From assembly GCA_012729115.1 (NCBI GenBank), contig JAAYDR010000041.1, positions 1 through 38,282 of the forward strand: DNA of 38,282 nucleotides. The letters run 5' to 3'. Position 1 is the stretch's first letter, and each line of letters opens with the position of its first letter. The notes under the pieces are model-generated. The model was not told where the DNA came from and ran no database searches. It was given only the letters and a program-made list of their open reading frames with translations. This DNA comes from Clostridiales bacterium. GTDB lineage: Bacteria; Bacillota; Clostridia; Christensenellales; Aristaeellaceae. Below, one piece after another: positions 19,051 through 35,563 of the stretch. Made by a program: the position numbers and the translations under genes.

Positions 19051-20598
19051 ATGAGTAATCCACAGGGAGTTGTGATCCTTGATTTTGGCGGCCAGTATAC
19101 CCAGCTGATTGCGCGTAGGGTGCGGGAAGCGGGTGTGTACTCGGTCGTTTTGCCTTATACGGCCAGCGTTGAGGATGTACTGGCCCATGAGCCCAAGGGG
19201 CTGATTTTATCCGGGGGCCCGGCGGGGGTGTTGGACGAGGATGCACCGCTGTGCGGGCGTCAGATTTTTGAACTGGGAATCCCTGTGCTGGGTATCTGCT
19301 ACGGGATGCAGTTGATGGCTCATGTGCTGGGAGGTCTGGTGGCCAGGGCTCCCCAGCGGGAGTATGGGCCTATTCCTGTAAGCATGCTGCAGCGGGAGAA
19401 GGGTCTGCTCAAAGGGATGGACGCGGTAAGCCCCTGCTGGATGAGCCATACATGGCAGGTGAGGGAGTTGCCGGAAGGCTTTTCGGCCATTGCCAGCACC
19501 CAGGCATGTCCGGTTGCTGCCATGGAGGACGAGAGCCGCGGGCTGTATGGTGTTCAGTTCCATCCGGAGGTGACCCACACCCGGGAGGGAAGGGTGCTGC
19601 TGGAAAATTTTCTCAAGGAAGTTTGCACTCTGACAGCGGATTGGAACATGGAGGCGTACGCCGACATGGCCATCCGGCAGATTAAGGAGCAGGTGGGGGA
19701 GAAGGGCACCGTGCTACTGGGCCTCAGTGGCGGTGTGGACAGTGCGGTGGCCGCGGCTCTTATTTATCGGGCGATTGGGGACAGGCTCACCTGTGTGTTT
19801 GTGGATCATGGCTTCATGCGCAAAGGTGAGGGGGACCAGGTGGTGGAGGTATTCAGCAACACCTTCCCCGTAAGGCTGGTCAATGTGGACGCGTCCGATC
19901 GGTTTTTTTCGGATTTGAAGGGCGTTGTGGATCCGGAGGCCAAACGCAAGATCATCGGCCGGGATTTTGTGGAAGTATTCAAGGAAGAAGCGGCAAAGCT
20001 GGGCAAGCTGGACCACTTTGCCCAGGGTACCATTTACCCCGATGTGATTGAAAGCGGCGCGGTGAAGGGCAGTGCGGTGATCAAGAGTCATCACAATGTG
20101 GGGGGCCTTCCTGCGGAACTGGGTTTTACCAGTCTGGTGGAGCCGCTTTCCATGTTGTTTAAGGACGAGGTGCGCAAGCTAGGCTTGACTCTGGGCCTTC
20201 CCCAGACGCTGGTAATGCGCCAGCCCTTCCCCGGGCCGGGGCTTGCCATACGGACTTTGGGTGAGCTCACCCGGGAGAAGGTGGAGATCGTACGGGAGAC
20301 CGACGCGATTTTGAGGGAAGAAATTGCTGCTGCCGGACTGGCAGGAAAAATTTCTCAGTATTTTACCGTGCTCACCAATGCGCGCAGCGTGGGCGTGATG
20401 GGAGACGAGCGGACGTATGCGTACGCGGTTGCGATACGCGCCGTGCTTACAGATGATTTTATGACGGCGGATGTGGCGCAGTTGCCATACGAACTATTGG
20501 GGAAGATCGCCGGGCGGATGGTGGGTGAGGTGTCCGGTGTAAACCGGGTGCTGTATGACGTGACCACGAAGCCCCCTGCCAGCATTGAATGGGAATGA
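19051..20598 (+). CDS. guaA: GMP synthase (glutamine-hydrolysing)
   Basis: The enzyme converts XMP to GMP with glutamine as nitrogen donor. I start it at MSNPQGVVILDFGGQYTQLI (ATG 19051), with GAAAGGGG upstream; an earlier in-frame ATG at 18973 lacks a site and extends past the conserved N-terminus. The class I amidotransferase domain has the nucleophile Cys83 in GICYGMQ and the His-Glu pair in FHPEVTHT. The ATP-pyrophosphatase domain has the PP-loop GLSGGVDSAVAA. The dimerisation domain has RQPFPGPGLAIR and ends KPPASIEWE. The 515 residues are the usual length. A perfect terminator follows directly. I saw no purine riboswitch upstream. Confidence 0.98.
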   Translation: MSNPQGVVILDFGGQYTQLIARRVREAGVYSVVLPYTASVEDVLAHEPKGLILSGGPAGVLDEDAPLCGRQIFELGIPVLGICYGMQLMAHVLGGLVARAPQREYGPIPVSMLQREKGLLKGMDAVSPCWMSHTWQVRELPEGFSAIASTQACPVAAMEDESRGLYGVQFHPEVTHTREGRVLLENFLKEVCTLTADWNMEAYADMAIRQIKEQVGEKGTVLLGLSGGVDSAVAAALIYRAIGDRLTCVFVDHGFMRKGEGDQVVEVFSNTFPVRLVNVDASDRFFSDLKGVVDPEAKRKIIGRDFVEVFKEEAAKLGKLDHFAQGTIYPDVIESGAVKGSAVIKSHHNVGGLPAELGFTSLVEPLSMLFKDEVRKLGLTLGLPQTLVMRQPFPGPGLAIRTLGELTREKVEIVRETDAILREEIAAAGLAGKISQYFTVLTNARSVGVMGDERTYAYAVAIRAVLTDDFMTADVAQLPYELLGKIAGRMVGEVSGVNRVLYDVTTKPPASIEWE

Positions 20599-20600
20599 TG

Positions 20601-20642
20601 AAAAACCCCGAAGGCTTGACCAATCAAGCCTTCGGGGTTTTT
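20601..20642 (+). terminator. Strong bidirectional terminator after guaA
   Basis: A perfect 19-base inverted repeat (20601-20619 with 20624-20642) closes a four-base CCAA loop. A run of A on the left and T on the right allows termination in both directions. Confidence 0.95.
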
Positions 20643-20710
20643 GATGGGCTGGCGGACGGTAATGATTCCGTTCACAGGGGATATCCAGAAGGTAGAATAA
20701 GGAGGCACCC

Positions 20711-32681: not shown

Positions 32682-33293
32682 ATGGAAAACAGGCCGTTTG
32701 ACAGGGTTTTTGGAACAGTTGTTTTTGGCTTCATGCTGTTGGTGCTTCCCTTTTGTGCGGGTTGGTGGATTTCCTATCTGCTTGGGGCGGGATCGGAGAA
32801 GATCATTGCCATCGGGATCTCCTCGGGCATCATCGTGGGGATCGTCCTGAATCTGCTGTTGCTGAAAAAAACAATCGTGCGCCTATACTTACTGCCCACC
32901 TGGCTGATGATCGGCCTATTGGCGCTGTACTCCATTGGCATCTTCGGCTTCTTCATGGGCGTGCCCGTATTCAATGTTTTTGCCGGTATTCTTGCGGGCA
33001 TCTACACAGGCAGACAGGCCAAGGTGATGGACTGGGACGCGGCGTTTTATTCCGCAAGGCTTAAAAGGGCACAATGGGTATCCCTTTCCTTGCTTCTGAT
33101 GGCTTGCGTTACCTCCGCCGTTTTGGCATTATCGGACTCCCACACTCCTGCAAACATTCAGGGTATGCTTTCCCTGAATTTCACGTTAACCCCCTCACTG
33201 CTGATGGGAATTATATGGGTAGGCGGTGTACTCCTCCTGGCCGTACAGTTTGCGCTGACCAAGGTATCTGCGGCACTGGCATACGCAAGGTGA
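32682..33293 (+). CDS. Unrecognised integral membrane protein
   Basis: I do not recognise this 203-residue protein. It has about six hydrophobic segments, among them VVFGFMLLVLPFCAGWWISY near the start, GISSGIIVGIVLNLLLL, a long pair around PTWLMIGLLALYSIGIFG, then WVSLSLLLMACVTSAVLAL and LLMGIIWVGGVLLLAVQFAL at the end, and no enzyme motif. The start MENRPFDRVF has GGGAGG ten bases upstream; an ATG nine bases earlier (32673) is almost on top of the site. It stands alone between two promoters. Confidence 0.6.
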   Translation: MENRPFDRVFGTVVFGFMLLVLPFCAGWWISYLLGAGSEKIIAIGISSGIIVGIVLNLLLLKKTIVRLYLLPTWLMIGLLALYSIGIFGFFMGVPVFNVFAGILAGIYTGRQAKVMDWDAAFYSARLKRAQWVSLSLLLMACVTSAVLALSDSHTPANIQGMLSLNFTLTPSLLMGIIWVGGVLLLAVQFALTKVSAALAYAR

Positions 33294-33336
33294 TACCGGA
33301 GCAGCTGCTTTGTGGCAATCATTCCGATATCTCGGA

Positions 33337-33364
33337 TTGACAAATCACCGTCTTTTCCTATAAT
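33337..33364 (+). promoter_or_regulatory. Near-consensus sigma-A promoter before a structured leader
   Basis: Perfect TTGACA (33337-33342) and perfect TATAAT (33359-33364) with a 16-base spacer. It is the only promoter in the window with both consensus hexamers. The transcript would start near 33371, almost 250 bases before the next gene. Confidence 0.85.
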
Positions 33365-33370
33365 GAAATG

Positions 33371-33581
33371 GGCAGCAAACGAATCATAGGAATCAGCAAA
33401 ATACCGTTTTTGGAGGGATACCGTCCGGACCAGGCGGCTCAAAGCCTGTGCCGGAAAAGAAGGAAGCACGGACATCAGAAAATTGAGCCATTCCAATGGG
33501 AAGGCCTGTTTTTTGTGTTTGTGTACCTTTCGGCGGTATCCTCTTGTTTATCAGAGGGATACCGCAGCGGTTCCCTTTTTT
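33371..33581 (+). ncRNA. Candidate structured leader RNA / attenuator upstream of a methyltransferase
   Basis: The transcript contains a stable stem of two 5-bp helices (33424-33435 with 33444-33455, 2x2 internal loop, 8-base loop). Next is a terminator-like stem 33487-33505 followed by TGTTTTTT (33507-33514). After it come four segments that can pair in alternative ways: segment 1 GGAGGGATACCG (33412-33423), segment 2 GCGGTATCCTCT (33533-33544), segment 3 AGAGGGATACCGC (33553-33565) and segment 4 GGTTCCC (33569-33575) followed by six T (33576-33581). Segment 2 can pair with 1 or 3; segment 3 can pair with 2 or, as a terminator, with 4. No known riboswitch consensus was recognised, and no leader peptide with a good ribosome binding site was found. 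Confidence 0.6.
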
Positions 33582-33617
33582 CGTTTGCTGCAATCCATCA
33601 TGAGAAGGAGTAGAAAT

Positions 33618-34463
33618 ATGCTTTCCATACAAAATATTAAGTCCATCCTTGCAGAAATGGAGCGGCCGCTGCCCTACCAAACCGGCGCGGAGTTGTGGAG
33701 GGACCCCCATATCGCCGGTGAGATGCTAAAAGCCCACCTATCCCCGGATACTGATGCCGCCAGTTATCGGCCGGATACCATTCGCAAGATCTGCGCATCC
33801 CTGCCGGAGCGTATGGGGTTAAGGCCGGGTGACAGTATTGTAGACCTTGGTTGCGGGCCGGGGCTCTATTGCCAACGACTGGCACTGAACGGTTTCCAAA
33901 TGACGGGCGTGGACTGGTCCGAGAACTCTATTGAATACGCCAAAACACTATGTGCAGGGCAGTGCGTTGCCTTTCGTCAGGGAAGTTACCTGGAACCCTT
34001 TGGGCAGGAGGAATTTCATGGAGCATTGCTCATTTCCAGGGATTATGGCGTACTCCAGCCCCAGATGCGGCGGAGATTGCTTCATAACATCCATACGGCT
34101 CTCAGACCGGGCGGTTCCTTTGCCCTGGATGTGGAAAGCAAGGAAGCCTTCAAGGCATTCCAGAAAAATACTTCTCCCAGATGGGAAGCAGCGGAGAAGG
34201 GATTTTGGCGTCCCCATCCCTATGGGGTGCTCACGATGACCGTTGACTACCCGGAGATTGCAGCCGGCTGTACTCTCTACGCTGTGTTGGACGATCAGAT
34301 AACCATATACCGTGTCTGGCAAACCTACTTCACCCCGGATTCTATCCGTGCCGAATTGCGCGATGCCGGGTTTGACAAGGTGGAAGTGAGGACAAGTTTG
34401 ACGGGTGATCCATGGAGGGAGGAAGCCATGCAATTGGGTGTGGTATGCCATAAGAGGGCATAA
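33618..34463 (+). CDS. SAM-dependent methyltransferase (second)
   Basis: The 281-residue protein is a class I methyltransferase with motif I SIVDLGCGPGLYCQRLA at about 73-89, the acidic residue in MTGVDWSENSIEYAK, and GALLISRDYGVLQPQMRRRLL as post-motif II. The C-terminal half resembles members that act on small molecules, but the substrate is unknown. I start it at MLSIQNIKSI, where AAGGAG lies seven bases upstream; the open frame extends left through the leader but has no site. It is controlled by the leader at 33371-33581. It is only distantly similar to the methyltransferase at 21170-21967. Confidence 0.9.
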   Translation: MLSIQNIKSILAEMERPLPYQTGAELWRDPHIAGEMLKAHLSPDTDAASYRPDTIRKICASLPERMGLRPGDSIVDLGCGPGLYCQRLALNGFQMTGVDWSENSIEYAKTLCAGQCVAFRQGSYLEPFGQEEFHGALLISRDYGVLQPQMRRRLLHNIHTALRPGGSFALDVESKEAFKAFQKNTSPRWEAAEKGFWRPHPYGVLTMTVDYPEIAAGCTLYAVLDDQITIYRVWQTYFTPDSIRAELRDAGFDKVEVRTSLTGDPWREEAMQLGVVCHKRA

Positions 34464-34609: not shown

Positions 34610-35563
34610 ATGCCTATTCTGGACATGCCTCTTGCGGAGTTGGAGCGCTATCAGGGAGCCCCCATACCTGGTGACTTTGATGCTTATTGGGAGGAAGCTC
34701 TATCCCAGGTGGAAGATCGTGCTTATACCATTGCTCCTTCGGACTTTTCCCTCCCCGGGTATGAGTGCTCTATCCTCACCTTCACCGGCGTGGGTGGCGC
34801 GCAGGTGGGCGGCAAGTTCATTAGACCGCTGGGGGAGGGCATGTTGCCCGGCGTGGTGGTGTTTCATGGGTACAGAGGCAATAGCGGTGACTTTTTCAAT
34901 CTGTTGCCATATGCGGCGGCGGGGATGGCGGTCTTTGCCATGGACGTCAGAGGGCAAATGGGCATCTCTCAGGACAATTTTGTCTCAACCGGTAACACTC
35001 TGCTGGGGCACATCGTCCGGGGCCTGGAAGAATACAATCCCAAACGGCTCTTTTATCGCAACGTTTTCCTGGACACCGTACAAAGTGTCCGTATCCTGAT
35101 GAGCATGCCCTTCGTGGATGCGATGCGGGTGGGTGTTACCGGCGGTTCCCAGGGTGGAGCCTTGGCCACAGCCTGCGCGGGACTGGAGCCGAGGGTGAAG
35201 GTTGCTGCAATTGCTTATCCCTTCTTGTCGGATTACCGCCGGGTATGGGAGATGGATATGGGCAAGCGGGCCTATGAGGAACTGGAATACTTTATCCGCT
35301 GGCGTGATCCCCTCCATGAGCGGTTGGAAGACATGTTTCGCACCCTGGATTACATTGATGTAAGCCATCTGGCCCCGCGCATCAAGGCTCGCACACATTT
35401 TTTCCTCACCCTGCAGGATGACATCTGTCCGCCCTCCACCCAGTTTGCGGTCTATAACAACACGCCGGAACCCAAATCCCGGGATATCTATTACAACCAC
35501 GGGCATGAGGGTCTGCCTCGGATGGGAGATCGGACACTCCGGTTCCTGCTGGAAAACCTGTAA
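34610..35563 (+). CDS. Acetyl xylan esterase / cephalosporin-C deacetylase family hydrolase
   Basis: The 317-residue alpha/beta hydrolase matches the AXE1 family (carbohydrate esterase 7). It has the early GAPIPGDFDAYWEEAL, the strand with VVFHGYRGNSGDF, the nucleophile Ser in VTGGSQGGALA near residue 180, the acid in TLQDDICPPSTQFAVYN near 269 and the His in YNHGHEGLP near 298. Members remove acetyl groups from xylo-oligosaccharides and other small acetylated substrates. There is no signal peptide, so it would act on imported sugars. GGGAGGAGG precedes the ATG. Convergent with the DUF1905 gene. Confidence 0.9.
   Translation: MPILDMPLAELERYQGAPIPGDFDAYWEEALSQVEDRAYTIAPSDFSLPGYECSILTFTGVGGAQVGGKFIRPLGEGMLPGVVVFHGYRGNSGDFFNLLPYAAAGMAVFAMDVRGQMGISQDNFVSTGNTLLGHIVRGLEEYNPKRLFYRNVFLDTVQSVRILMSMPFVDAMRVGVTGGSQGGALATACAGLEPRVKVAAIAYPFLSDYRRVWEMDMGKRAYEELEYFIRWRDPLHERLEDMFRTLDYIDVSHLAPRIKARTHFFLTLQDDICPPSTQFAVYNNTPEPKSRDIYYNHGHEGLPRMGDRTLRFLLENL

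Follow-up and report, generated by a model that had tools for sequence, protein, structure and literature searches.

A conserved leader RNA with mutually exclusive pairings ahead of a methyltransferase gene in Clostridiales: a likely transcription attenuator

Introduction

Attenuators of the trp type are built from four RNA segments that pair either as 1:2 and 3:4 or as 2:3, and T-box leaders choose between a terminator and an antiterminator and carry a bulge that binds the tRNA acceptor end. A structured leader ahead of a methyltransferase gene, found in a 38,282-nucleotide stretch of DNA from a Clostridiales bacterium (hereafter the window), has features of both. Like trp-type attenuators, it has four segments that can combine as 1:2 and 3:4 or as 2:3, but it lacks a credible leader peptide, allows a 1:4 pairing, and accommodates two large hairpins between segments 1 and 2. 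With T-box leaders it shares a choice between terminator and antiterminator, and its AGGGATACCGC faintly resembles the T-box sequence; however, it has neither an Rfam T-box match nor, judged by eye, a bulge that could bind a tRNA acceptor end. Terminator-type riboswitches and riboswitch candidates have in common with it a structured leader, a three-way junction, a closing strand that is also the antiterminator partner, and a terminator-like stem before the gene. The leader differs from these in having no known aptamer, in a stem (P1) that joins the 5' end to bases behind the terminator, and in the possible 1:4 pairing. We know of no RNA class that combines a reciprocal four-strand switch with such a closure of the 5' end.

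Two described RNAs invite comparison. The present leader and the yjdF (azaaromatic) riboswitch (PMC7266159) may share a logic, in which foreign compounds are sensed upstream of a gene whose substrate is not known; they differ in that yjdF has been called a translational switch, and the leader has no Rfam match. The smtA motif of Thioalkalivibrio is set apart by its description as unusually long and as belonging to a Gram-negative halophile (PMC11109978). Among the open-licence papers listed by our literature search, no title or opening of an abstract describes the leader. At the gathering thresholds of Rfam 15, there were no matches anywhere in the window or in three homologous loci (L006, L007 and L020), and at E values up to 10 the region 33290-33640 gave a single chance-level match to a ctRNA (E 4.4) and none to the T-box model or to any SAM model, consistent with the first-pass annotation of this DNA, which had recognised no known aptamer. 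We conclude that the leader is a real and conserved cis-regulatory RNA, undescribed as far as searched, and that its most likely role is to attenuate transcription and to do the sensing directly.

The locus and its computed fold

The promoter reported in the first-pass annotation, with both consensus hexamers, is a full match (Table 1); shuffles of the region contained 0.4 promoter-like sites on average, and by eye, promoter-like hexamers lie at the matching place in L007, L020, and L006. Judged from the promoter spacing, transcription is expected to start at about 33371.

Table 1. Coordinates of the promoter, the parts of the leader, the methyltransferase gene and the leaders of the second type.
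Feature	Position	Strand	Remark
Promoter TTGACA-N16-TATAAT	33337..33364	+	12/12 consensus positions
Leader, 221 nt	33371-33591	+	ahead of methyltransferase gene 33618-34463
P1 5' arm GCAGCAAACGAA, expected transcript 5' end	33372..33383	+	complementary to 33580-33591
Segment 1 TTGGAGGGATACCG	33410..33423	+	partner is segment 2 or 4
Hairpin P3 (TCCGG...CCGGA)	33424..33455	+	in minimum-energy fold
Long hairpin P4 with inner stem, U run 33509-33514	33459..33531	+	computed fold
Segment 2 CGGTATCCTCTT	33534..33545	+	partner is segment 1 or 3
Segment 3 AGAGGGATACCG	33553..33564	+	partner is segment 2 (antiterminator) or 4 (predicted terminator)
Segment 4 CGGTTCCC and T6 tract, 3' half of predicted terminator	33568..33581	+	CGGTTCCC 33568-33575, TTTTTT 33576-33581
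P1 3' arm TTCGTTTGCTGC, starts in final two T of T6 tract	33580..33591	+	
Ribosome binding site of methyltransferase, AAGGAG	33605..33610	+	read from sequence
Class I SAM-dependent methyltransferase, 281 aa	33618..34463	+	Pfam Methyltransf_25, E 9.8e-14
Second-type leader, L079	2699-2869		
Second-type leader, L080	2776-2945		
Second-type leader, L022	3790-3955		
Second-type leader, L188	1501-1678	-	

The computed fold of the leader is exceptionally strong. The 238 bases from 33368 to 33605 reach -106.1 kcal/mol, compared with -67.8 +/- 4.1 in 200 shuffles, none of which was as good (z -9.4). Among 510 window stretches of 222 bases (508 regular tiles and the leader in register on each strand, with 24 shuffles each and hence rough z values), the leader accounted for the two lowest values, -7.9 on the plus and -9.5 on the minus strand, so that its complement folds strongly as well. 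The next lowest, -7.2 and -6.4, lie at 20551, followed by values of -4.3 and weaker. The 20551 outlier contains an intergenic 22-bp inverted repeat with A/T flanks (20598-20645, 95% complementary), an ordinary bidirectional terminator. The 250 bases upstream of the three methyltransferase homologues that carry the leader also fold strongly, with z values of -10.3, -6.2, and -6.1.

The minimum-energy fold contains the hairpin P3 that had been noted at first sight, as well as the inner stem of a terminator-like element proposed to end in six T at 33514; those six T, however, are paired within the long hairpin P4 and are not free. The repeat described earlier is present, in that GAGGGATACCG occurs at 33413-33423 and again at 33554-33564 and CGGTATCC (33534-33541) is complementary to either copy, and the downstream copy can alternatively pair with CGGTTCCC, directly followed by TTTTTT, as had also been claimed. 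An 8-mer that occurs twice with its complement between the copies arose in 8 of 5000 dinucleotide shuffles. The 1:2 / 2:3 / 3:4 scheme built on these elements had its segments correctly placed and mutually exclusive, but it was incomplete, as the 1:4 pairing and stem P1 had been missed, together with the homologues of the leader. P1 is a perfect 12-bp stem whose arms lie 196 bases apart and which joins the transcript 5' end to bases behind the predicted terminator; three of four species have the same arm cores, CAAACGA and TCGTTTG. When the leader is folded in full, the form closed by P1 is computed to be the most stable.

The protein encoded downstream is an accessory methyltransferase: counting the window's own, 9 of 150 genomes of the family encode a relative at E 1e-20. 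Twelve loci were collected from genome contigs, and a search of viral contigs for the methyltransferase gave none. Its AlphaFold model (pLDDT 88.6) has PsmD, SeMT, and CypM as its best Foldseek matches, with CcbJ further down and the bacillithiol methyltransferase NmbA also listed, and none of the 20 NCBIfam models listed reached its cut-off. PsmD, SeMT, CypM, and CcbJ are methyltransferases that act on small molecules or peptides in natural-product pathways. The substrate is probably a small molecule. An acetyl xylan esterase family (AXE1) gene lies downstream, at 34610-35563, after a gap of 146 bases.

Homologous leaders and covariation

The same leader is found directly upstream of the methyltransferase gene in four species, represented by the window, L007 (G098), L020 (HGW-Firmicutes-9), and L006 (G119); G504, a genome of the same order, has the same letters as L020. 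A covariance model made from the window, L007, and L020 only (R1) retrieved the L006 leader with 70.1 bits (E 1.6e-13, in 162,397 bases from 21 sources), and apart from leaders and their reverse strands the highest score was 17.3 bits. This fourth leader lies just upstream of a methyltransferase gene, on the minus strand of its locus. R1 finds the leader in 3 of the 20 homologue loci L006-L025 and not in the other 17, and all three examined loci with more than 50% protein identity (L007, L020, L006) have it. The methyltransferases of leader-bearing loci are 51 to 57% identical to that of the window (L007 over 176 residues) and those of leaderless loci 28 to 43%, and homologues from plasmid records (L079, L080) have no leader of the window type. 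Six neighbour proteins examined at three loci differ, with no regulator in common, and leader and gene therefore appear to travel as a unit.

A DNA search of 17 genus genomes matched the window alone, and one of phages and plasmids had no match. The pattern GAGGGATAC...GGTATCC matched 15 of 396 order genomes, and among the letters listed, it was leader-like in the window and G504 only. R1 found its own genome alone among 391 class genomes, and G119 and G098 among the six genomes of G119's genus. Model R2 gave three strong and four weak matches (E 0.03-0.09) in 308 family genomes; one strong match, its reverse strand, and weak ones in five genomes (E 0.006-0.05) in 103 genomes of G504's family; and its own genome alone in 398 phylum genomes. 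The larger covariance scans thus yielded no strong copy besides the four leaders, with the proviso that stricter filters were applied whenever more than 40 genomes were scanned, and these may miss divergent copies. Ten loci with weak matches (14 matches) were dropped; of the six alignments viewed, five were a hairpin with A- and U-rich flanks, as in ordinary terminators, and the sixth, in L044, was a poor full-length fit. In viral contigs, R2 matched none of 24 loci with GGRGGGATACNNTCCGG, and a model of a second leader type (R3, see below) matched none of the 80 stretches tested among 105 with GACTGGAAAAGAGTA.

The first-pass annotation had tied its reading to covariation among homologous leaders, and the four sequences collected do covary. 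In a MAFFT alignment of three sequences, not fitted to structure, both bases of a predicted pair had changed in some sequence for 21 of 69 pairs. In the alignment of four (A3), which was fitted to the structure model, it was 22 of 69, compared with 10.7 in shuffles and 2-6 with slid partners, and when 2:3 replaces 1:2 and 3:4 it was 21 of 55, compared with 9.8 in shuffles and 3-6 when slid; these shuffle counts come from four related sequences and do not amount to probabilities. The covariation is contributed by P1 (3/12 pairs changed on both sides, with 95.7% of cells paired in four species), P3 (5/11), P4, and the inner stems of P4. The alternative helices are also retained. In L006, the most diverged homologue, segments 2 and 3 both differ, and 2:3 is kept by compensating changes (11/11 pairs) and 1:2 by G-U pairs (10/11), so that both pairings survive the substitutions. 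In the window's register, the four leaders keep 9, 8, 7, and 7 of nine 3:4 pairs, with other registers available in L007 and L020, and 9, 8, 5, and 9 of nine 1:4 pairs. Four to six T follow stem 3:4 in all four leaders. The predicted L006 terminator is weak, a six-pair stem with TTTT after CCTG. The order of promoter, leader, and gene is conserved, the helices are conserved and covary, and both pairings coexist in four homologues. The leader has what is expected of a riboswitch in kind, a conserved, covarying domain sharing a strand with a computed expression platform, in four sequences.

Alternative pairings and their energies

The four segments can be combined as 1:2 with 3:4, which gives the predicted terminator, or as 2:3, with or without 1:4. 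For the terminated transcript, the first state and the 2:3 state with 1:4 are computed at -80.5 and -86.6 kcal/mol in the window, -84.0 and -83.7 in L007, -80.5 and -80.7 in L020, and -84.6 and -98.2 in L006. The two states are near-equal in L007 and L020; for the other two leaders, those of the window and L006, the state lacking the terminator is computed to be the more stable, so that termination would need kinetic control. When 1:4 is forbidden, the 2:3 state amounts to -83.9 (window), -79.0 (L007), -75.2 (L020), and -89.7 (L006), so that in L007 and L020 the terminator state is then the more stable one. Before segment 4 has been made, 2:3 is favored over 1:2 by 2.4 to 4.7 kcal/mol in all four leaders, and 1:2 can form earlier than 2:3 during synthesis. 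The best fold of the window's read-through form is -103.2 with or without 1:4.

The 1:4 pairing is the least secure of the leader, and its helix, with the U run behind it, might on its own terminate transcription. P1 requires read-through in order to form and has no clear role in the decision. A simple terminator scanner found no terminator-like sites over the leader region; stem 3:4 has a one-base bulge, and the pattern printed by the scanner names none. The logic that had been likened to trp-type attenuation or a riboswitch expression platform stands in that 2:3 and 3:4, the latter with its U run, exclude each other; the comparison with trp fails for the peptide, as the window, L007, L020, and L006 have no credible frame with a ribosome binding site, which the first reading had also noted.

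A possible mechanism and its rivals

These features are consistent with the following model, in which the RNA would be the 5' leader of the methyltransferase mRNA and, having two alternative stable folds, would attenuate transcription. In the off state, 1:2 would close a three-way junction with P3 and P4, and 3:4 would then make an intrinsic terminator, keeping the gene off. In the alternative state, 2:3 would pair, possibly together with 1:4, no terminator hairpin would form, and the polymerase would continue; after read-through, the new 3' strand would pair with the transcript 5' end to form P1 and so close the leader upstream of the ribosome site. The choice between the states would most likely be set by a small molecule bound at the P3/P4 junction, plausibly a toxic or foreign compound that the methyltransferase modifies, and induction by the ligand is a guess from the logic of detoxification. 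Termination, regulation, direct ligand sensing, and its direction are inferred. That the leader is an attenuator we regard as quite likely and give small-molecule sensing about an even chance; the explanation as a whole, a bistable attenuator set by a small molecule, with ligand and direction inferred, seems to us somewhat probable. If the leader senses a ligand, it would constitute a new class of gene-control RNA, and the ligand would give a lead to what this sparsely distributed methyltransferase modifies; a sensor of foreign compounds would make the otherwise unguessable substrate directly searchable by a reporter screen.

A protein could instead decide the fold, for example an antiterminator or the methyltransferase itself, by binding to the leader. 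Candidate protein sites are the long P4 hairpin and the P1 arm cores that three of four species have in common, and in the genomes searched, strong matches to the RNA models were seen with the methyltransferase gene only; the six neighbour proteins of the three loci differ and include no shared regulator, and the methyltransferase has a fold of the small-molecule type, and we consider this explanation unlikely. Attenuation by a ribosome translating a leader peptide, of the trp or erm type, would fit the similar four-segment logic and a segment 1 that is rich in GGAGG, reminiscent of a ribosome site, and an 81-codon frame from the ATG at 33368 does run through the leader of the window. That frame, however, is not common to the homologues: in L020, ATG, GTG, and TTG are all absent upstream of segment 1; the only such codon in L007 is a TTG (17 codons) at the very start with no ribosome site ahead; the two ATG at or before the expected start and the TTG at segment 1 of the window do not stand behind a ribosome site; and L006, by eye, has no credible frame, leaving no peptide common to the leaders. 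Ribosome-mediated attenuation is therefore very unlikely, since no credible start with a ribosome site precedes segment 1, and the missing Rfam match and peptide together disfavor trp-type attenuation and favor an RNA that senses by itself.

The P1 arms might alternatively be features of the DNA, the terminal inverted repeats of a small transposon or the halves of an operator, as they form a perfect 12-bp inverted repeat, separated by 196 bases, whose cores are the same in three of four species, in a region whose computed fold is strong on both strands. The leader is nevertheless single in its own genome, besides a 27-base match (E 0.009) and two 16-base matches (E 0.78), its position between promoter and gene is kept in four species, the compensatory changes include G-U pairs, and R1 scores the window leader at 192.5 bits on the plus and 34.5 bits on the minus strand; a mobile element or DNA-level feature is accordingly very unlikely. 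Scarcely better or worse, and if anything slightly less probable, is a stable structured small RNA or mRNA-stability element that switches little, in which the P1-closed leader protects the 5' end. Such an element would suit the stability of the P1-closed form in the full leader and the covariation of P1, but leaves unexplained why 1:2 and 2:3 are both kept through the substitutions of L006 and why T runs follow stem 3:4 in all four leaders. The bistable attenuator set by a small molecule remains our preferred reading.

A second leader type

In Enterococcus gallinarum (L079), Monoglobus (L080), and Vagococcus (L022), distant homologues of the methyltransferase gene are preceded by a second conserved type of leader, which has a P3-like hairpin, a P4-like long hairpin, and then a terminator-like stem. 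A covariance model of these three leaders (R3) found one more among 219 phylum genomes, in G1140 (L188, E 1.7e-5), which is separated by about 430 bases from a downstream glyoxalase-like gene, with acetyltransferase and methyltransferase genes next in the run; this methyltransferase matches that of the window over 103 residues only (30%). The Staphylococcus homologues L186 and L187 were tested by R3 alone. At the Rfam gathering threshold, the leaders of L079, L080, and L022 had no match (L079 had sub-threshold matches only), and that of L188 had none at E up to 1.

The covariance models do not match reciprocally. R2 gave two weak matches on L079, L080, and L022, both in L080 (best 15.6 bits, over P4), and an R3 search found none of the four window-type leaders. 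Run on the window leader, R3 scored 2.2 bits (E 0.66), with the match nonetheless falling in the P3/P4 register. The string TYCGG-N15-60-[CG]YGGAAVVGA is present in all four leaders of each type and at about a dozen other sites in 2.9 Mb (both strands), and was picked after viewing both types. As the models of the two types do not recognise each other, their kinship is only suggested by the layout and this short string, and homology, for which the models give no support, was set aside. We regard as doubtful a wider reading in which the leader represents a new class of riboswitch, responding to a toxic small molecule by inducing the enzyme that methylates it, with the Enterococcus, Vagococcus, Monoglobus, and G1140 leaders as a sister class built on the same junction. 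If this were true, both classes would form a group of RNA sensors controlling genes of detoxification or resistance, and would combine a reciprocal four-strand switch with closure of the 5' end.

Two observations concern the surroundings of the second-type leaders. In Monoglobus (L080, 777-4051), a recombinase gene precedes the methyltransferase gene and a gene for a cysteine-rich KTR protein follows it, a setting known from Tn916-like elements, in which it is occupied by accessory resistance genes; such neighbours are of the kind found on conjugative elements. Downstream of the Vagococcus methyltransferase lies a fluoride riboswitch (RF01734, L022 4914-4980, 39.9 bits).
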